DNA of 64,000 bases from Ramlibacter montanisoli (GTDB taxonomy: Bacteria; Pseudomonadota; Gammaproteobacteria; Burkholderiales; Burkholderiaceae_C): positions 3,534,001 to 3,598,000 of the forward strand of contig NZ_JABFCS010000001.1 of assembly GCF_013087525.1 (NCBI RefSeq), in the 5' to 3' direction. Every line of letters starts with the position of its first letter. Positions within the stretch are counted from its first letter, which is position 1. Below, in pieces: positions 7,500-16,256 of the stretch. The notes below the pieces were generated by a model that was not told the DNA's origin, made no database searches, and saw nothing but the letters and a program-made list of their open reading frames with translations. Position numbers and translations under genes: made by a program.

Positions 7500-8541
7500 T
7501 CAGGTGCGGAAGAAGGAACGGATGGCCGCGACGGCGCGATCCACGCCGGCCGCGTCTACGTCGAGGTGCGTCACGAAGCGCAGGCGGTACAGGCCGGTGG
7601 CCAGCACGCCCTGCTGCGCCAGGTGCTGCAGCAGCCCCGCCGAACGCTCTCGTGCGGGACCCACCAGTTCCACGAACAGGATGTTGGTGTGCGGCGGCTC
7701 CACCTGCAGTCCCTCGATGCCGGCCAGTCCTTCGGCGAGCCGGCGCGCCAGCGCATGATCCTGCGCCAGCCGCTCCACCTGGTGTTCGAGCGCGTATGTG
7801 GCCGCCGCGGCCAGCAGGCCGGACTGCCGCATCGCCCCGCCCGCCATCTTGCGGATGCGGCGCGCGCGGGCGATCAAGTCCCTGGAGCCGCACAGCGCGG
7901 AGCCGACCGGCGCCCCCAGCCCTTTGCTGAAGCACACCGACACGCTGTCGAACAGGCCGGCGATGCGCCGCGCCTCGCTGCGCGCGTCGCTGCCGTTGGC
8001 GGCCGCCTGCGCCACCGCGGCATTGAACAGGCGGGCGCCATCGAGGTGGGTCGCCAGGCACTTCGCTTTCGCCAGCGCGGTCGCCTGCTGCAGGTAGGCG
8101 AAGGGCAGCACCTTGCCGCCCAGCGTGTTCTCCAGCGCCAGCAGGCGCGAGCGCGCGAAATGCGGATCGTCCGGCTTGATGGCGGCCTCGATGTGCGCCA
8201 GCGCGAGGCTGCCGTCCGGCTGGTGGTCCAGCGGCTGCGGCTGCACGCTGCCGAACACCGCGGCACCGCCGCCCTCCCAGCGGTAGCAGTGCTGCATCTG
8301 GCCGACGATGTATTCGTCGCCGCGCTGGCAATGCGAGAGCACGCCGCACAGGTTGCTCTGCGTGCCGGTCGGAACGAACAGCGCCGCCTCGAACCCCAGC
8401 AGCGCGGCGATCTTCTCCTGCAGCGCATTGACGCTCGGATCGTCGCCGAACACGTCGTCGCCCAGCGGCGCTGCCGCCATGGCGGCGCATGCCGGCGGTG
8501 GGCTGGGTGACGGTATCGCTGCGCAGGTCGACGGGCTTCAC
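7500..8541 (-). CDS. ltaE: low-specificity L-threonine aldolase, frame broken near 8484
   Basis: A PLP enzyme cleaving threonine or allo-threonine to glycine and acetaldehyde. The start (GTG at 8541, [18 protein letters not shown]) is the family N-terminus; the rest lies in another frame from 8480 and begins [20 protein letters not shown]. The two join if two bases are restored in the ggcggcg stretch at 8481-8487. PLP-site segments are [13 protein letters not shown] and the lysine in [14 protein letters not shown]. The GTG overlaps the trpG stop by four bases. Its place in a trp operon is unusual. Confidence 0.9.
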
Positions 8542-9109
8542 GGCTTCTGCTCCAGGAAGTTCTTCAGCATCGCGTGTCCATGCTCGGTGAGGATGGACTC
8601 CGGGTGGAACTGCACGCCTTGCACCGGCAGGGTCTCGTGGCGCACGCCCATGATCTCGCCGTCGGGCGTCCAGGCCGTCACCTTCAGTTCCGGCGGGCAG
8701 CTCGCGCGTTCGATGGCCAGGGAGTGATAGCGGTTGACGGTGAAGTGCTCCGGCAGCCCCGCGAACACGCCCTCGCGGGTGGTGGTGATCTCGCTGGTCT
8801 TGCCGTGCATCAGCTGCTGGGCGCGCACGATCCGGCCGCCGAAGGCCGCGCCGATCGCCTGGTGCCCCAGGCACACGCCCAGGATCGGCAGCTTGCCGGC
8901 GAAATGGCGGATCGCCTCCACCGAGATGCCGGCTTCGGCTGGCGAGCACGGGCCGGGGAGATCACCAGCCGGTCGGGCTTCTTCGCTGCGATCTCCGCGA
9001 TGGTGATCTCGTCGTTGCGGTGCACCTCGACGGCGGCACCGAGCTCGCCGAAATACTGCACCAGGTTGAAGGTGAAGCTGTCGTAGTTGTCGACCATGAG
9101 GAGTTTCAT
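8538..9109 (-). CDS. trpG: anthranilate synthase component II (glutamine amidotransferase), frame broken near 8956
   Basis: TrpG supplies ammonia from glutamine to TrpE. It starts [20 protein letters not shown] at 9109 and carries the class I amidotransferase motifs [10 protein letters not shown] (nucleophile Cys) and VQFHPES (His/Glu). At 8955-8958 the G4 run needs one more base to give the family segment [15 protein letters not shown]; as given, the frame is lost there. The ATG overlaps the trpE stop (ATGA). It could also serve PabA, as many TrpG proteins do. Confidence 0.93.
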
Positions 9110-10624
9110 TCCAGGCCCTCCTCGACCACCTCGGATGCGCGCATCAGCGCGCGCGCCTTGGCTTCGGTTTCCTTCCATTCCAGCTCCGGCACCGAATCGG
9201 CGACCACGCCGGCGGCCGCCTGCACGTACAGCGTCTGGTCCTTGATGATGCCGGTGCGGATGGCGATGGCCACGTCCATGTCGCCTGCGTAACTGAGGTA
9301 GCCGCAGGCGCCGCCGTAGATGCCCCGCTTGTTCGGCTCCAGCTGGTCGATGAGTTCCATCGCGTGCACCTTGGGCGCGCCGGTCAGCGTGCCGGCCGGG
9401 AAGGTCGCCTTGAGCACGTCCATGTTGGTCATGCCTTCCTTGAGCAGGCCCTCGACGTTGCTCACGATGTGCATCACGTGGCTGTAGCGTTCCACCACGA
9501 AGGCCTCGGTCACCTTCACCGAACCGGTCTTCGCGATGCGGCCGATGTCGTTGCGCGCCAGGTCGATCAGCATCACGTGCTCAGCGCGCTCTTTGGCGTC
9601 GCCCAGCAGCTCCCGCTCCACCGCCTTGTCCACCTCCGGCGTCGCGCCGCGCGGCCGCGTCCCGGCCAGCGGGCGGATCGTGACCTTGTGGCCCTCCGGC
9701 GTCTGCTCGTGGCGCACCAGGATTTCCGGCGACGCGCCCACGACATGGAAGTCGCGCCCGTCGGCCGTGGCACCGGTGAAGTTGTAGAAATACATGTAGG
9801 GGCTGGGATTGAGCGAGCGCAGCGCGCGGTACAGCGACAGCGGCGACTCGGTATAGCGCTTCTTGATGCGCTGGCCCACCTGCACCTGCATGAAGTCGCC
9901 GGCCGCGATCAGCTCCTTGGCCCGCTCCACCGCCTTCAGGTAGTCCGCCTTGGCGAACTCGCGTTCCGCGGGGAAGGTCTCGGTCTGCCGCACCACCGGC
10001 GCGGTCACCGAGTACTTCAGCTGGTCCTTCAGTTCGCGCAGCCGGCGCTTGCCCGCGCCATAGGCCTCGGGCTTGCCCGGGTCGACATAGACGATGAGGT
10101 ACAGCTTGCCCGAGAGGTTGTCGATGACCGCCAGCTCCTCGCACTGCAGCAGCAGGATGTCGGGCGTGCCCAGGGTGTCCGGCGGGCAGGTCTTCTCCAG
10201 CTTCTTCTCGATGTAGCGCACCGTGTCGTAGCCGAAGTAGCCGGCCAGCCCGCCGCAAAAGCGCGGCAGCCCCGGGCGCAGCGCCACCTTGAAGCGCTTC
10301 TGGTAAGCCTCCACGAAGTCCAGCGGGTTGCCGGCGGCGGTCTCCACGACCTGGCCGTCGGTGACCACCTCGGTCTTCGCGTCGGCACCGAAGCCGCTGG
10401 CGCGCAACAGCGTGCGTGCAGGCAGGCCGATGAAGCTGTAGCGGCCGAAGCGCTCGCCGCCGACGACCGACTCCAGCAGGAATGAGCTTGCCGCCGCCCC
10501 TGGCGTGCGCCAGCTTCAGGTACAGGGAGAGCGGGGTTTCGAGGTCCGCGAACGCCTCGGCGATCAGCGGGATGCGGTTGTAGCCCTGCAAAGCAAGGCT
10601 CTTGAATTCCAGTTCGGTGATCAA
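9106..10624 (-). CDS. trpE: anthranilate synthase component I, frame broken near 10487
   Basis: TrpE makes anthranilate from chorismate. The large C-terminal part is whole, with [49 protein letters not shown] and [16 protein letters not shown]. The N-terminus ([20 protein letters not shown]) lies in another frame; the break at about 10484-10489 precedes [21 protein letters not shown] at 10624 is the likely start, because GGAGG stands seven bases before it and no ATG fits. A candidate leader peptide lies 98 bases upstream. Operon order is trpE-trpG-ltaE-exporter-trpD-trpC-ung. Confidence 0.94.
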
Positions 10625-10679
10625 GGGTGAGCCTCCACAAGCTCGGCGGCGATGGTCATGCCGCGGGAATCGGGACTGT

Positions 10680-10719
10680 GCCTCGGAACGAGGCGCGGGG
10701 GCACGGGAAGGCCCCGTGC
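10680..10719 (-). promoter_or_regulatory. two GC-rich hairpins between the candidate trp leader ORF and trpE
   Basis: Just after the leader-ORF stop, the minus strand carries GCACGGGGCCTTCCCGTGC (stem of seven pairs, 10719-10701), then GCCTCGTTCCGAGGC (stem of six, 10694-10680). They could take part in attenuation of trpE. Neither is followed by a U run, so a classical intrinsic terminator is not supported; a role in ribosome-coupled folding is only a proposal. Confidence 0.4.
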
Positions 10720-10721
10720 GG

Positions 10722-10805
10722 TCAGGAACGCACTTGGACAGGCTTGCGCCAGGGCCAGGCTCCCCGGTCGCTGCAACCTGTGATCATCGTGCGGTGGATG
10801 AACAT
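10722..10805 (-). CDS. candidate trp operon leader peptide (27 residues, two Trp codons)
   Basis: A short ORF starts ATG at 10805 ([15 protein letters not shown]) and contains Trp-Pro-Trp (codons at 10757-10755 and 10751-10749) before a TGA at 10722, 98 bases upstream of trpE. Two Trp codons in 27 is high for chance. A -10-like TACACT ends seven bases before the ATG and no Shine-Dalgarno is visible, so the transcript may be leaderless, as known for the trp leader of Sinorhizobium meliloti. The 10625-10958 stretch holds no other gene that I can see on this strand. Confidence 0.4.
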
Positions 10806-10811
10806 GGGGCC

Positions 10812-10844
10812 AGTGTAGCAAACGCATTTGGGCCGAGTCGTCAA
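10812..10844 (-). promoter_or_regulatory. candidate promoter of the trp operon
   Basis: On the minus strand TTGACG (10844-10839) matches five of six bases of a -35 box, and TGCTACACT gives an extended -10 with TACACT at 10817-10812. The 21-base spacer is longer than optimal, so the extended -10 may carry most of the strength. Confidence 0.35.
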
Positions 10845-10958
10845 CTTCAAAAAGTACCCCCGCCAGACGCACAAACGACAGCACGCAGGCCGCCGGGTCG
10901 CCCACAATCCGCGCCCTGGGAGAAAAAAGAACGACCGTTCCTTTTGAGGAGACAAGCT

Positions 10959-11543
10959 TTGCGAACCACCCTCCGCGCCGCCCTGCTGGCAGCCGCCTGC
11001 ATCCTGCCGCTGGCCAGCCCCGCCCAGACCACCGTGTCAGGCATCCGGTACGACGAGTCCGCCGTCCTGGCCGGCCAGAAGCTGCGCCTGAATGGCGCGG
11101 GCATCCGCTACAAGGGGCCTTTCAAGGTCTATGCCGCCGGCCTCTACTTGCCGAAAAAGGCCGGAACGCCCGAGGACGCGCTCGGCCTGCCGGGCGCCAA
11201 GCGCCTGACCGTCACCATGCTGCGCGAGATCGACGCCGGCGAGCTCGGCAAGCTGTTCGTGCGCGGCGTGGAGGACAACATGGACCGGGCGGCAATGTCC
11301 AAGCTGATCCCGGGCCTGATGCGCATGAGCCAGATCTTCACGGACCACAAGCGCCTGCAGGCCGGCGACGAATTCGCGTTGGACTGGATTCCCGGCACCG
11401 GCACCGTCGTTTCCGTGCGCGGCGTCCAGCAGGGCGAGCCCTTCAGGGAGCCCGAGTTCTTCAATGCGCTGATGCGCATCTGGCTGGGCCCGGTGCCGGC
11501 GGACTGGAAGCTGAAGGACAGCCTGCTGGGCCGGCAGGCCTGA
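10959..11543 (+). CDS. exported chalcone isomerase-like protein
   Basis: The 194-residue product begins with a signal peptide (RTTLRAALLAAACILPLASPAQ) and continues with the bacterial chalcone-isomerase-like fold pattern: GxxLxLNGAGIRYKGPFKVYAAGLYLP, then REIDAGELGKLFVRGVEDNM and a C-terminal FFNALMRIWLG. Bacterial members are usually periplasmic with no proven enzymatic role. A TTG at 10959 is the likely start, since GAGGAG lies seven bases upstream and the signal peptide begins exactly there. It converges on gph with a one-base gap. Confidence 0.78.
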   Translation: MRTTLRAALLAAACILPLASPAQTTVSGIRYDESAVLAGQKLRLNGAGIRYKGPFKVYAAGLYLPKKAGTPEDALGLPGAKRLTVTMLREIDAGELGKLFVRGVEDNMDRAAMSKLIPGLMRMSQIFTDHKRLQAGDEFALDWIPGTGTVVSVRGVQQGEPFREPEFFNALMRIWLGPVPADWKLKDSLLGRQA

Positions 11544-11544
11544 T

Positions 11545-12218
11545 TCAGGGGCGCAGCAGCGGGGGATCTCCGCCAGCGACTCGACATAAGCATCGGCCTG
11601 CACGGCGCGCACCGGCTCGCCGTGGTTGTAGCCGTAGGTGACCAGCACCACCGGGCAGCCGGCGGCGCGGGCCGCCGCTGCGTCGTTGCGCGAGTCGCCG
11701 ACCACCAGGGTGCGGGCGGGCGCGATGCCCAGCGCTTCGCAGGTCTTGCGCACGGGCAGCGGATCCGGCTTCTTGCGCTCGAAGGCGTCGCCGCCGAACA
11801 CCCGTTCGAAATCCTGCGCCAGCCCCTTGGCGGCCAGCAGCTCGCGGGCGAATTCGCCCGGCTTGTTGGTCAGGCAGGCCAGCCGCAGGCCGGCCCCGCG
11901 CAGGCCCGCCACGCCTTCCAGCACGCCGGGGTAGACGCGGGCCCAGCGGCCGTTGAGGCCGCGGTAGGCGTCCTGGTAACTGTCCCACGCCCGGGCATAG
12001 AGGTCAGGCGAGGCGCCGACGTGCGCCAGCGTGGCCTGGATGAGGTGCTCCGAACCCTTGCCGATGAAGCCCGCGACCACCGGCGTCTGCACGGAAGGCA
12101 GGCCGAGCGCGCGCAGCATCTGGTTCAGGGCCGCGCTGAAGTCCCCGAGGGTGTCGACCAGCGTGCCGTCCAGGTCGATGATGGCCGCGTGCAGCGGGCC
12201 GGGCAATGCGACAGGCAT
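11545..12218 (-). CDS. gph: phosphoglycolate phosphatase, frame broken near the 3' end
   Basis: A HAD hydrolase that dephosphorylates 2-phosphoglycolate. Motif I is IIDLDGTLVDTLGDF, motif II CLTNKPGEFAREL, and motif IV VVGDSRNDAAAARAAG. The frame is open past the expected end, but one extra base in the G5 run at 11561-11565 gives AEIPPLLRP and a TGA at 11545, a normal length of about 224 residues. The ATG at 12218 starts MPVALPGPLHAAIID. In many Burkholderiales gph is next to the trp genes; here one exported protein lies between. Confidence 0.9.
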
Positions 12219-12241
12219 GCGGCGAGCATACCGGCGCCGCC

Positions 12242-12272
12242 CAAAGAAAAGCCAGGGCAAGGGCCCTGGCTT
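12242..12272 (-). terminator. rho-independent terminator downstream of the 80-residue hypothetical gene
   Basis: On the minus strand AAGCCAGGG, loop CCCTTG, CCCTGGCTT forms a perfect nine-pair stem followed by TTCTTTGG. It lies 19 bases beyond the stop of the gene at 12291-12533 and before gph, separating the two units. Confidence 0.85.
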
Positions 12273-12290
12273 CGCGGGGTGACGGAAGCT

Positions 12291-12533
12291 TCAGCGGCTG
12301 CGGCGGCTGCTGCTGCCTTCGAAAGTGGCGCTGTCGCGGTCGGCCTGAACGCGCATCCAGTCGAACCGGGTGGTGCGGGTCGCACGCTCGGTGCTGCCGC
12401 GGGAGGCGGGTGCGGTCTGGATGGTGTCGCGAACGTAGCCGACGACTTCGCAATGGCGTTCCGGGTCTGCGGAAGTGAAGCTGCGCCCGGCACTCCACAC
12501 GGGTTGGCTGCTGCGCTGGTCGATCGATGCCAT
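12291..12533 (-). CDS. small hypothetical protein (80 residues)
   Basis: A short protein, MASIDQRSSQPVWSAGRSF..., rich in Ser, Arg and Thr, with one Cys and no membrane segment. Support for it being a gene is AGGAG six bases before the ATG at 12533 and a strong terminator just after the stop. I recognise no domain. Confidence 0.6.
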   Translation of the reverse strand: MASIDQRSSQPVWSAGRSFTSADPERHCEVVGYVRDTIQTAPASRGSTERATRTTRFDWMRVQADRDSATFEGSSSRRSR

Positions 12534-12677
12534 CGGAACTCCTGGGACGTGGAACAACAGGCCGGCGCACGCCAGCCACTCCCCGATTGAACGTGGCGGC
12601 GCCCCAGCCCGCAGTCGGCCGATCCGACATCGCCGCGTGGGGTTTGTCCTACACGCCAGCGGGCTGCCCGCCCGCGT

Positions 12678-14834
12678 TCAGGCGGGCACCTGCTCGACCA
12701 TGGCGCGCGCCCAATGCCTGTGCTTCGCGATGGCGGCGATGAAGTCCTGCGCCATCTGCAGGCGGGTGGTCGGCTCGTTGGTGCCGATCACCACGCCGGC
12801 CGGCACGGCCGCGTCCGGCTGGGCGATGCCGACCGAGCGCAGGATCTCCACCGACTCGCCGATGATGCACAGGGGCTTGCAGTGCTTGAAGGCCTCCAGC
12901 ACGAAGTGCACCGCGTCGCCGTTCTTCAGCAGCGCCTGCGCGGCCGCCGCGCCGCCGGGCACCAGCACGGCATCGAAGGTGACCGAGGGCATGTTCTGGA
13001 AGGTATGGTCCACCGGCACCTGCTGGCCCGACGAGGAGGTGACGAAGCCCAGGTGGCCGGCGACCACCTTGGTGATGGCGCCGGCGTCCAGCAATGCCTG
13101 CTGGATCACCTTGAAGGCGCCCAGCTCCACGCCGGCGCCCATCACGATCGCCACGCGGCGGGTCTGGATGGTGTTGCCGGTGGGCTCCATGCTGAGGGAC
13201 GGCGCCGATTCGATGCCCGGCTTGCCGCGCGGTTCGCGAAATCCCGCCTGGCCGGCCGCGGACTTCGCATCCGGCGGGCCGATGCCCAGCGGCTCGGCGA
13301 CCTTGCGCGCCAGCCTGGCATCGACATGCGCCAGGTTGTCGACCACGCGCTGCCGGATCGCCGGCGTCTCCACCCGCGACAGTTCGTACTGGAAGGCCGA
13401 GATGATGTGTTCCTTCTCGCAGGTGCTCTGGCTGTTCCAGAACAGCGTGGCCTGCGCGAAGTGGTCGTCGAAGCTGGTGCTGCGCCGGCGGATCTTGGGC
13501 GACTCCAGGTTTTCCTCGAAGGTCGAGAATCCCTGCTCGCCGCCGTCCACCCGGAATTCGGATCCGTTGGCCAGCGTGTTCGGCTCGTACGAGACGCGGC
13601 CCCGGGCGATGCCCGTGCGATGGCGGCCGTCACGCTGGAAGTTGTGCACCGGGCACACGCCGCGGTTGATCGGCAGCTCGTGGTGGTTCGGACCGCCCAG
13701 GCGTGCGAGCTGCGCATCGCTGTACGAGAACAACCGGCCCTGAAGCAGCGGGTCGTTGCTGAAGTCGATGCCCGGCACGATGTTGCCGGGGTGGAAGGCG
13801 ACCTGCTCGCACTCCGCGAAGTGGTTCTCCGGGTTGCGGTTCAGCACCAGCCGGCCGCAGGGCGTGATGGGCACCACTTCCTCGGGCAGCAGCTTGGTGG
13901 GATCCAGCAGGTCGAAGCCCAGTTTCTCGGCGCGCTCCTCGTCGAGGACCTGCAGGCCCAGCTCCCATTCCGGGAAGTCGCCACGCTCGATCGCCTCCCA
14001 CAGGTCACGGCGATGGAAGTCGGGGTCCTTGCCGGCGATCTTCTGCGCCTCGTCCCAGGCCAGCGCGTGCTTGCCCAGCTTGGGGCGCCAGTGGAACTTC
14101 ACGAAGTGCGACACGCCGCGGGCGTTCACCAGCCGGAAGGTGTGGACGCCGAAGCCCTCCATCATCCGGTAGCTGCGCGGCAGCGCGCGGTCCGACATCA
14201 GCCACATGAGCATGTGCGAGCTCTCGGGCATCAGCGACATGAAGTCCCAGAAGGTGTCGTGCGCGCTGGAGGCCTGCGGCATGCCGTGGTGCGGCTCGGG
14301 CTTCATCGCGTGCACCAGGTCCGGCAGCTTCATCGCGTCCTGCACGAAGAACACCGGCATGTTGCTGCCCACGAGGTCGTAGTTGCCTTCGCGCGTGTAG
14401 AACTTGACGGCGAAGCCGCGCACGTCGCGCACCGTGTCCGCCGAGCCCTGCGAGCCGATGAAGTTGGAAAAGCGCACGAACACCGGCGTGCGGCCGCCCA
14501 CTTCCTGCAGGAAGTCGGCCTTGGTGTACTCCACCAGCGGTCGCGTGAGTTCGAAGTAACCGTGGGCGGCGGCACCGCGCGCATAGACCACGCGTTCGGG
14601 AATGCGCTCGTGGTCGAAGTGGGTCAGCTTCTCGCGCAGCACGAAGTCCTGCAGCAGGCTCGGGCCGCGCAGGCCCGCCTTGAGCGAGTTGTGGTTGTCG
14701 GGCAGCACCACCCCCTGGTTGGTGGTGAGCAGGCTTTCAGGTCCCTGCGTGAAGGCTTCGAGCTGTTTCTGGCGGTTGGCGACCGGGTCGCCGGCTTTTG
14801 CTTTGCGTGAGCCCTCCGAGCGGGAAGAGGCCAT
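12678..14834 (-). CDS. katE: large-subunit catalase (KatE-type, with C-terminal flavodoxin-like domain)
   Basis: At 718 residues this is a clade 2 haem catalase disproportionating hydrogen peroxide. The distal histidine lies in VYARGAAAHGYFE, the distal Asn region in FSNFIGSQGSADTVRDVRGFAVKFYT, and the proximal haem Tyr in RLFSYSDAQLARLG. After the barrel, a DJ-1/GATase1-like domain covers roughly residues 560-718 (RRVAIVMGAGVELGAF, VLVPGGAAAAQALL). AGGAG precedes the ATG. The frame is intact over more than 2 kb. The neighbouring upstream mini-protein (14914-15036) may be cotranscribed. Confidence 0.96.
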   Translation of the reverse strand: MASSRSEGSRKAKAGDPVANRQKQLEAFTQGPESLLTTNQGVVLPDNHNSLKAGLRGPSLLQDFVLREKLTHFDHERIPERVVYARGAAAHGYFELTRPLVEYTKADFLQEVGGRTPVFVRFSNFIGSQGSADTVRDVRGFAVKFYTREGNYDLVGSNMPVFFVQDAMKLPDLVHAMKPEPHHGMPQASSAHDTFWDFMSLMPESSHMLMWLMSDRALPRSYRMMEGFGVHTFRLVNARGVSHFVKFHWRPKLGKHALAWDEAQKIAGKDPDFHRRDLWEAIERGDFPEWELGLQVLDEERAEKLGFDLLDPTKLLPEEVVPITPCGRLVLNRNPENHFAECEQVAFHPGNIVPGIDFSNDPLLQGRLFSYSDAQLARLGGPNHHELPINRGVCPVHNFQRDGRHRTGIARGRVSYEPNTLANGSEFRVDGGEQGFSTFEENLESPKIRRRSTSFDDHFAQATLFWNSQSTCEKEHIISAFQYELSRVETPAIRQRVVDNLAHVDARLARKVAEPLGIGPPDAKSAAGQAGFREPRGKPGIESAPSLSMEPTGNTIQTRRVAIVMGAGVELGAFKVIQQALLDAGAITKVVAGHLGFVTSSSGQQVPVDHTFQNMPSVTFDAVLVPGGAAAAQALLKNGDAVHFVLEAFKHCKPLCIIGESVEILRSVGIAQPDAAVPAGVVIGTNEPTTRLQMAQDFIAAIAKHRHWARAMVEQVPA

Positions 14835-14913
14835 CGATCACTCCTGTTTTCTTGTCAGCCGGTCGGGGAACGGGGAACCGGCGCCGGCGGCGCCATGGCT
14901 GTGCGGCAGGGGT

Positions 14914-15036
14914 TCAGCTCGGATCCAGGTCGAACACGGCCTCGAGGCCGCGCGCCAGGGCGCCCAGGGCGACGAGGCCCACGACGCCCGCGGCGATCAA
15001 CGTCAGCCAATCCGGAATCACAGGTGCGATCTCCAT
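14914..15036 (-). CDS. 40-residue single-pass membrane mini-protein upstream of katE
   Basis: The ATG at 15036, preceded by GGGAGA, opens a 40-codon frame: MEIAPVIPDWLTL, a hydrophobic stretch of about 18 residues (IAAGVVGLVALGALARGL), then the acidic tail EAVFDLDPS. It looks like a genuine small transmembrane protein and lies 79 bases upstream of katE on the same strand. No family is recognised; function unknown. Confidence 0.5.
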   Translation of the reverse strand: MEIAPVIPDWLTLIAAGVVGLVALGALARGLEAVFDLDPS

Positions 15037-15248
15037 CCACGTCTCCCTTGGCATTCTTTGCGGTTCCGCATTGGAGCAAGCCTCAGCCGCATGAACCGTA
15101 GCCCTTCAGCGGGCGCGTTTGTGGGGCGAAGCCGTCACCCCCGTAGGCGCTTTCCCACAGTGGCATGGGTATCCGGCTGGCTGGCGCGGCACCGTCCTAC
15201 TGTCGTGGCACAGGGTCCGGCGCACCATGGCTGCCTCAGGAGAACGCG

Positions 15249-15557
15249 ATGAGCAAACGCATGCAGGAAGAGCGGCACGACGAGGCGCCGCGGCCCTCGG
15301 AAGGCAACACCATCACCGCGCAGGGAGACAAGCAGTTGCCCAAGGCACGCACGCCCAACGAGCGCGACGAATCCGCCGACAGCCAGGCCGGCGCCAACCC
15401 GCAGGCGCGCCGCCTGGGCGAGATGGCGCACGACGACGTGATGGAAGGCCAGCAGGACACCAGCAAGGCGCAGGAGATGGACGCGACCTACCACCGCGTG
15501 CAGCAAGCCAGCGAGCCTGCCCCCGTCGAAAAGGCGAACAGCCGGCAGCGGCGCTAG
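15249..15557 (+). CDS. small hydrophilic hypothetical protein (102 residues)
   Basis: The product is charged and Gln/Ala/Glu-rich (MSKRMQEERHDEAPRPSEGN...), without Cys, signal peptide or membrane segment, and is probably intrinsically disordered. The ATG at 15249 has AGGAGA eight bases upstream. It is divergent from the katE unit, with 212 bases between, and converges on rpe. Its composition recalls small stress-related proteins, but I recognise no family. Confidence 0.65.
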   Translation: MSKRMQEERHDEAPRPSEGNTITAQGDKQLPKARTPNERDESADSQAGANPQARRLGEMAHDDVMEGQQDTSKAQEMDATYHRVQQASEPAPVEKANSRQRR

Positions 15558-15569
15558 CCGCGCGGGTTG

Positions 15570-16256
15570 CTAGCCGCGCAGCTGCGTGCGCATCGCGTCG
15601 ATGACGCCCCTGTAATCGGGCTTGCCGAAGATCGCGCTGCCGGCCACGAAGGTGTCGGCACCGGCGGCCGCGATGCGCGCGATGTTGTCCGTCTTCACTC
15701 CGCCGTCGACTTCCAGGCGGATGTCGCGGCCGCTCGCGTCGATGCGCTTGCGCGCGTGCTCGATCTTGCGCAGCGCCGAGTCGATGAAGCCCTGGCCGCC
15801 GAAGCCCGGATTCACGCTCATGACCAGCACCAGGTCGATGTCGTCGATCACCCAGTCCAGCACATCCAGCGGCGCCGCCGGATTGAAGGTCAGGCCCGCC
15901 TTGCAGCCCGCCGCCTTGATCGCCTGGACGCTGCGGTGCACGTGCGCCGACGCGTCGGGGTGGAAGCTGATGTAGTCGGCGCCGGCCTCGGCGAAGGCCT
16001 GGGCCAGCGCATCGACCGGCTGCACCATCAGGTGCACGTCGATCGGCACCGGCGTGCCGTCCGGCTTCTTCGCGTGCGGCTTCAGCGCCGAGCAGATCAT
16101 CGGGCCGAAGGTCAGGTTGGGCACGTAATGGTTGTCCATCACGTCGAAGTGGATCCAGTCGGCGCCGGCGGCGATGACGTTGCGGACCTCCTCGCCCAGG
16201 CGGGCGAAATCGGCGGACAGGATGGACGGGGCGATGCGGTAGGTGCGCGTGCTCAT
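15570..16256 (-). CDS. rpe: ribulose-phosphate 3-epimerase
   Basis: This 228-residue TIM barrel interconverts ribulose 5-phosphate and xylulose 5-phosphate in the pentose phosphate and Calvin pathways. Motifs are [45 protein letters not shown] and [10 protein letters not shown]. The ATG at 16256 ([13 protein letters not shown]) fits the family start. It is divergent from apaG, with 55 bases between the two start codons. Confidence 0.97.

Follow-up and report, generated by a model that had tools for sequence, protein, structure and literature searches.

Organisation of the region upstream of trpE

The window analysed here is a 64,000-nucleotide stretch of Ramlibacter montanisoli DNA in which trpE is read from the minus strand (Table 1). 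An ORF of 27 codons with two Trp codons, which a first-pass annotation had described as a possible trp leader, is present upstream of it and is here termed trpL; its Trp codons are codon 17 (10757-10755) and codon 19 (10751-10749). The -10-like box that had been noticed close to the ATG was also found, since TACACT (10817-10812) forms part of the extended box TGCTACACT and six bases separate the box from the leader ATG, and no Shine-Dalgarno (SD) sequence precedes this ATG in the window, as had been claimed. The Trp codons lie within the stretch GACCGGGGAGCCTGGCCCTGGCG, referred to below as the core, in which a GGAG resembling an SD sequence stands 8 nt ahead of the second Trp codon. The two hairpins described between the leader stop codon and the TTG of trpE can both be recognised (hairpins A and B), and the SD sequence of trpE itself is GGAGG (10636-10632).

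Table 1. Features of the trpL-trpE region, in window coordinates.
Feature	Coordinates	Strand	Basis or remark
Leader ORF (trpL), 27 codons, probably leaderless	10722..10805	-	ORF reading and conservation in relatives
Trp-Pro-Trp codons TGG CCC TGG, codons 17-19 of the leader	10749..10757	-	
Extended -10 box TGCTACACT of the leader promoter	10812..10820	-	Exact 9-mer in 99/122 loci
Near-invariant core GACCGGGGAGCCTGGCCCTGGCG, candidate anti-SD segment	10747..10769	-	Codon choice and RNAalifold pairing
Hairpin A, GCACGGG/CCCGTGC, directly after the leader stop	10701..10719	-	
Hairpin B, GCCTCG/CGAGGC, no U run behind it	10680..10694	-	Two-sided changes in the 46-row alignment
Hairpin C, GCGGC/GCCGC	10646..10664	-	By eye from genus sequences, unscored
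Hairpin D (short), GAGC/GCTC, encloses the trpE SD; alternative partner of the core	10629..10644	-	By eye, unscored
trpE, TTG start at 10624	9106..10624	-	Reading frame broken near 10480 in the assembly

Several further points concern the locus. Between 10735 and 10701 (minus strand) the 5' arm GCAC of hairpin A could pair instead with a GTGC in the last part of trpL, an alternative that puts the leader stop codon in a loop and that can be seen by eye in many rows of the genus alignment. The break in the trpE frame leaves two ORFs (10624-9581 and 10407-9106, minus strand), unlike in relatives, where trpE is open, and the frame of trpG (9178-8538, minus strand) also appears broken by eye. Two adjacent breaks, together with a completeness of 90%, suggest that these are indels of the assembly. 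A small exported protein, which we take to be chalcone-isomerase-like, is encoded by a divergent gene (about 10960-11543, plus strand) that has its upstream region in common with trpE.

The leader is conserved before trpE

Poor conservation of the ORF and its Trp codons had been named beforehand as grounds for abandoning a leader; alignment of the trpE upstream regions of relatives gave the opposite picture. Of 150 genomes of the family, 144 gave a trpE match, and 100 of the 144 loci were fetched, 80 mainly by top trpE similarity and 20 among those with the lowest trpE scores. A leader with the motif GAWxWR, rarely EAWxWR, precedes trpE in 91 of the 100: in 78 of the first 80 (the exceptions are L037 and L051) and in 13 of the 20 low-end loci, one of which, L307, is cut by its contig end. 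Two of the seven low-end loci without a leader, L295 and L306, retain TTTGCTACACT before trpE. In these two and in L051 a CTACACT promoter-like box is kept before trpE where no Trp leader was recognised.

Within the genus, trpE was found in 59 of 60 genomes and 48 of the 59 matches were fetched, besides the own genome and G097, the latter being part of the family set. Every one of these 48 further loci has a leader with both Trp codons, starting with ATG in 45 and with GTG in three. In the latter (L092, L103 and L107) the GTG stands directly behind the box and would be an unusual start codon for leaderless initiation; L092 is excluded from the genus tables, which hold 47 loci. Since the family and genus alignment rows were chosen by their W.W motifs, the invariance of Trp and Ala and near-invariance of Gly in them reflect that choice, and since the loci are related, the counts are not independent.

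The DNA pattern CTACACT-N4..12-ATG-N24..54-GGNGCNTGGNNNTGGCG has at least 119 matches in public genomes. Among the matches listed, all 116 that can be checked precede trpE: a trpE start motif lies behind 111, five more are followed by the TrpE start GHNRIPL, and the remaining three of the 119 sit at locus ends. A stricter trpE start test is also passed by 102 of the 119 listed. The titles of 80 of them name mostly Comamonadaceae and relatives (Aquabacterium, Ideonella and Roseateles among them); others are metagenome-assembled genomes given as Proteobacteria, Gammaproteobacteria or Burkholderiales, and one is a Methylobacillus. In a 300-genome sample of the order, the strict leader pattern occurs in none of 291 genomes from 50 other families and in eight of the nine own-family genomes, the own genome included. 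We conclude from this conservation that the small ORF is real and not a chance reading frame.

The leader promoter predicts a leaderless transcript

The box ends 6-11 nt before the leader start codon in all 122 loci scored, at distances of 6 (40 loci), 7 (33), 8 (26), 9 (15), 10 (7) and 11 nt (1), so that 73 loci fall at 6-7 nt; these counts exclude L010 and L082, for which the script picked another ATG, and the GTG-starting L103 and L107. TGCTACACT is matched at eight or nine of its nine positions in 116 of the 122, whereas none of 1509 control stretches of 32 nt reaches eight, the maximum being 7/9. A conserved -35 element was sought upstream of the leader box in the 122 loci and none was found; the sole strongly conserved promoter-like box found is the one adjoining the leader start. 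A C directly precedes the leader ATG in 92 loci.

Given the observed spacing and the distance that usually separates a -10 box from the transcription start, the transcript probably starts at the leader ATG or a few bases before it. Because an SD-like 4-mer precedes the leader in just one of the 122 loci and the box stands so close to the start codon, the trpL-trpE mRNA is probably leaderless.

The Trp-codon core is constrained at the RNA level and is predicted to pair with the trpE Shine-Dalgarno region

Codon choice in the core departs strongly from that at trpE starts. GGA stands beside the Trp codons in 72 of 79 family rows, compared with 2% of 444 Gly codons at trpE starts; CGG is found in 75 of the 79 rows against 3% of Arg codons, and CCC in 69 against 20% of Pro codons. 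As the rare codons GGA and CGG prevail here, the Trp-codon stretch is, by this measure, constrained at the RNA level.

A candidate partner for the core was seen with RNAalifold in an alignment of 46 rows, comprising the window, 42 of the 47 genus rows, L005 (also of the genus) and L022 and L031 from other genera; the other five genus rows (L086, L108, L115, L122 and L124) were set aside by hand for odd length or ending. The 26 predicted pairs join core columns 5-16 to the trpE SD region and form a small leader hairpin and hairpins A and B. Two-sided changes over all pairs amount to 28 cells, compared with 9.6 in shuffles, 27 of them at four of the five pairs of hairpin B and one in hairpin A. 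Compensatory stem changes, which the first-pass annotation had suggested looking for, thus occur in B and, apart from the single cell, not in A, which shows little covariation because it is nearly invariant in the genus. The core:SD helices contain no two-sided changes in the 46 rows; they are 97-99% paired (helix 1, 97.3%) and hardly vary.

Pairing energies point in the same direction for the genus, where the duplex of core and trpE ribosome-binding site (RBS) has an energy of -24.0 kcal/mol, compared with -20.6 for shuffled RBSs and -19.7 for shuffled cores, and is lower than with the shuffled RBS in 45 of 47 loci; across the family this holds for 52 of 79. In 102 named loci the core pairs better with the trpE RBS than with 368 other gene starts (p = 2e-5; GC-adjusted excess -1.52 +/- 0.41), while decoy cores gave p values of 0.08, 0.98 and 0.23. 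The GC-adjusted excess in the family sample (66 distinct RBSs) is -1.22 +/- 0.50; with the GGAGGCTC lineages removed, the excess over other genes is insignificant after GC correction (-0.58 +/- 0.54). Against the whole leader-trpE interval the core pairs no better than shuffled.

We also calculated SD accessibility from the partition function with a ribosome footprint of 32 nt, and the opening of the trpE SD expected on stalling was not convincingly seen. Mean accessibility in the genus was 0.351 with the ribosome at the second Trp codon, higher than at the stop codon (0.316, p 0.013) but lower than with no ribosome (0.373). There was no gain in the family, with values of 0.375, 0.393 and 0.385, respectively, and the window itself gave 0.245, 0.144 and 0.354. 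On these models the core can pair with the trpE SD region, a pairing that is well supported in the genus and weakly across the family, the footprint calculation adding no support; the core could also be conserved for other reasons. A different pairing, between the first half of the leader and the trpE start through TGATCAC stretches, was dropped because self pairs were little better than swapped pairs in the family (-20.97 against -20.21) and worse in the genus (-17.97 against -18.41).

We tentatively favour an attenuator that responds to tryptophan, in which the leader peptide is made from a leaderless mRNA and the readout is pairing of the core with the trpE SD. We infer that transcription would begin at the leader ATG or within a few bases of it and that a ribosome would initiate on this 5' end without an SD. 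When charged tRNA-Trp is scarce, the ribosome would wait at the Trp-Pro-Trp codons and cover the core CGGGGAGCCTGGCCCTGG. When Trp is plentiful it would reach the leader stop codon and leave, and the freed core (GGGGAGCCU...) would pair with AGGCUC-ACCC at the SD and start of trpE, holding trpE translation low. The leader peptide very probably senses Trp; that the readout is SD sequestration is, on the modelled pairings, a plausible but decidedly less secure proposition.

Other readouts of the leader

The absence of a U run behind the hairpins had been noted as a weak point of an attenuation model. None is present in the window, and between the leader and trpE no terminator-like site was found in any of the 47 genus loci (shuffled mean 0.6). 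The same scanner found such sites in eight of 79 family loci (shuffled 3.6) and in 17 of 29 loci of a second family, f8 (shuffled 3.2); runs of five T occur in none of the 47 (0.3), 11 of the 79 (1.25) and 22 of the 29 (1.95). A previous scan, in which the hairpin window was shorter, scored 0/47 in the genus, 5/79 in the family and 12/102 in the named loci. On the counts of 8/79 and 5/79, some members of the family may have retained a terminator. The original description of the ORF as a Trp leader is therefore supported, and Trp sensing by the ribosome is the reading that fits best, but in one part the description is not borne out, since the hairpins fall short of a textbook terminator. With the U run missing from all 47 genus loci, transcription attenuation of the classical type is probably not how the leader is read out.

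The lack of an intrinsic terminator in the genus would suit a readout by Rho, which would terminate transcription in the C-rich, untranslated interval that separates the leader from trpE; the leader would be the same leaderless Trp sensor, and the hairpins and the ribosome position would decide whether Rho loads. The interval does contain more C than G (C-G +0.078 in the genus and +0.086 in the family, compared with -0.003 in control stretches that may be partly coding) and more YC steps (0.218 and 0.198, compared with 0.141). However, f8, with its U-run terminators, has a similar C excess (+0.068), so this signal does not discriminate, and under starvation a ribosome halted at the Trp codons would leave the RNA accessible to Rho, which means that the model requires an additional structure. 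We regard a Rho readout as a serious contender that is nonetheless rather unlikely.

Classical attenuation would require hairpin B or C to act as an intrinsic terminator without a recognisable U run. The two-sided changes in hairpin B, the terminator-like sites with a U run behind the similar leader of f8, and the family counts above the shuffled values are all in keeping with this, but the genus has neither a terminator-like site nor a T5 run in any of its 47 loci, and we consider it distinctly unlikely.

The core might instead serve as a pause element, its SD-like GGAG (GAGG in f8) aiding the stall at the second Trp codon, a reading compatible with SD sequestration, Rho and an intrinsic terminator alike. 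The fixed GGA fits it, as does the f8 leader, where GAG is used in 25 of 27 rows although it makes up 22% of Glu codons in f8 trpE, and where the spacing is by eye equal to that in the own family despite the differing codons. An SD-like tetramer cannot account for CGG and CCC being fixed too, nor for CGA in f8 (27/27, given without a background frequency), and the leaders of further families seem by eye to have no such tetramer. A pause element is improbable as the explanation of the core.

The ORF might instead be conserved mainly for a product acting in trans, a small RNA or peptide as with peTrpL/rnTrpL of Sinorhizobium (excerpts of PMC7298713), with trpE control secondary; in its favour, synonymous changes prevail over codons 2-6 of the 41 genus leaders in register (658 compared with 177 other single changes, pairwise counts). 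Outside codons 2-6 and the core these leaders show no synonymous excess (638 compared with 1140 over codons 7-13, 809 compared with 956 over codons 21-27), and every checkable pattern match among those listed lies before trpE, which makes this account very improbable. A chance ORF with chance hairpins, for which the shortness of the ORF alone speaks, is contradicted by the conservation of leader and box and by the position of the pattern matches before trpE, and can practically be dismissed.

Relation to known leaders and to other families of the order

In the E. coli trp leader, a short ORF with adjacent Trp codons lies ahead of trpE and is followed by hairpins. The locus described here has the same layout, but with Trp-Pro-Trp in place of Trp-Trp, with a probably leaderless mRNA, without an intrinsic terminator in the genus and without an Rfam match. 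A search with Rfam, including Trp_leader, over window positions 8000-16000 and six loci gave no match at the gathering score, although Atu_C7 matched L041 weakly (20.3 bits against a threshold of 45), and the peptides of three leaders had no match in Pfam or NCBIfam up to an E value of 1.

In Sinorhizobium meliloti, according to excerpts of PMC7298713, a Trp-codon leader peptide of 14 amino acids (trpL/rnTrpL/peTrpL) precedes trpE; the RNA starts with the ATG of this leader, and the leader RNA stops at a transcription terminator. Our locus shares the Trp-codon leader before trpE and, by prediction, the leaderless RNA; as far as these excerpts go, it differs in bacterial class, in the peptide, which is not alike, and in having no visible terminator in the genus. 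Pairing of regulatory codons with an SD has been proposed for the LEU element before leuA in Actinobacteria, as is predicted here; that element concerns leucine and another phylum, a pseudoknot has been proposed for it, and its authors leave the mechanism undecided (excerpts of PMC1262725). A 2013 survey (excerpt of PMC3766115) holds that the four Rfam amino-acid attenuator motifs may stem from gammaproteobacteria. The excerpts available of PMC7298713, PMC1262725, PMC3766115 and PMC2965389 name no betaproteobacterial trp leader, and a partial search of the literature (titles and abstract openings) gave no trp leader peptide for Comamonadaceae or other betaproteobacteria, though one may be in print. 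Leaderless trpL and Trp-codon leaders are already known kinds; Rfam, Pfam, NCBIfam and the literature searched yielded neither the leader described here nor its box or its lack of a terminator.

A further comparison is with f8 (L261, L262 and L309-L336; 30 of 39 loci fetched), whose closeness to the own family consists only in having the most similar trpE outside it. Most f8 loci have a leader ending EAWLWRRWQ.. at the same place before trpE, and as in the own family no SD lies upstream of it (29/29). Unlike the own family, f8 shows no TGCTACACT box by eye; unlike the genus, it has terminator-like sites with a U run, and its core pairs no better than decoy cores. It is conceivable, though on balance doubtful, that in the own family the Trp codons of a leaderless trp leader themselves constitute the trpE anti-SD, that a ribosome stalled on this blocking strand derepresses trpE without terminator or antiterminator, and that the arrangement would derive from a terminator-type attenuator like that of f8.

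The leaderless trp leader, if borne out, would give a large and well-sampled bacterial family a tryptophan switch and would mean that such leaders also exist outside the rhizobia. It would also provide a natural comparison of two readouts, with a terminator in one family and none in another, behind a similar leader peptide and, as the transcript appears to start with the ATG, a compact model for leaderless mRNA translation under amino-acid shortage.

A Trp-containing leader before trpE was also read in 18 of the 28 loci taken from other families of the order (two of them from f8), often ending WRWR, and some of these may be chance. On this count, Trp leaders ahead of trpE may date far back in the order, with differing readouts. 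In some of these loci the leader start is complementary to the sequence immediately upstream of trpE, over 27 bases in L279 (shuffled maximum 10), 11 in L267 and L270 (8 and 8) and 8 in L283 (7); for the majority of the 18 leaders the match is no longer than in their shuffles. Such complementarity is possibly a translational switch of another design.
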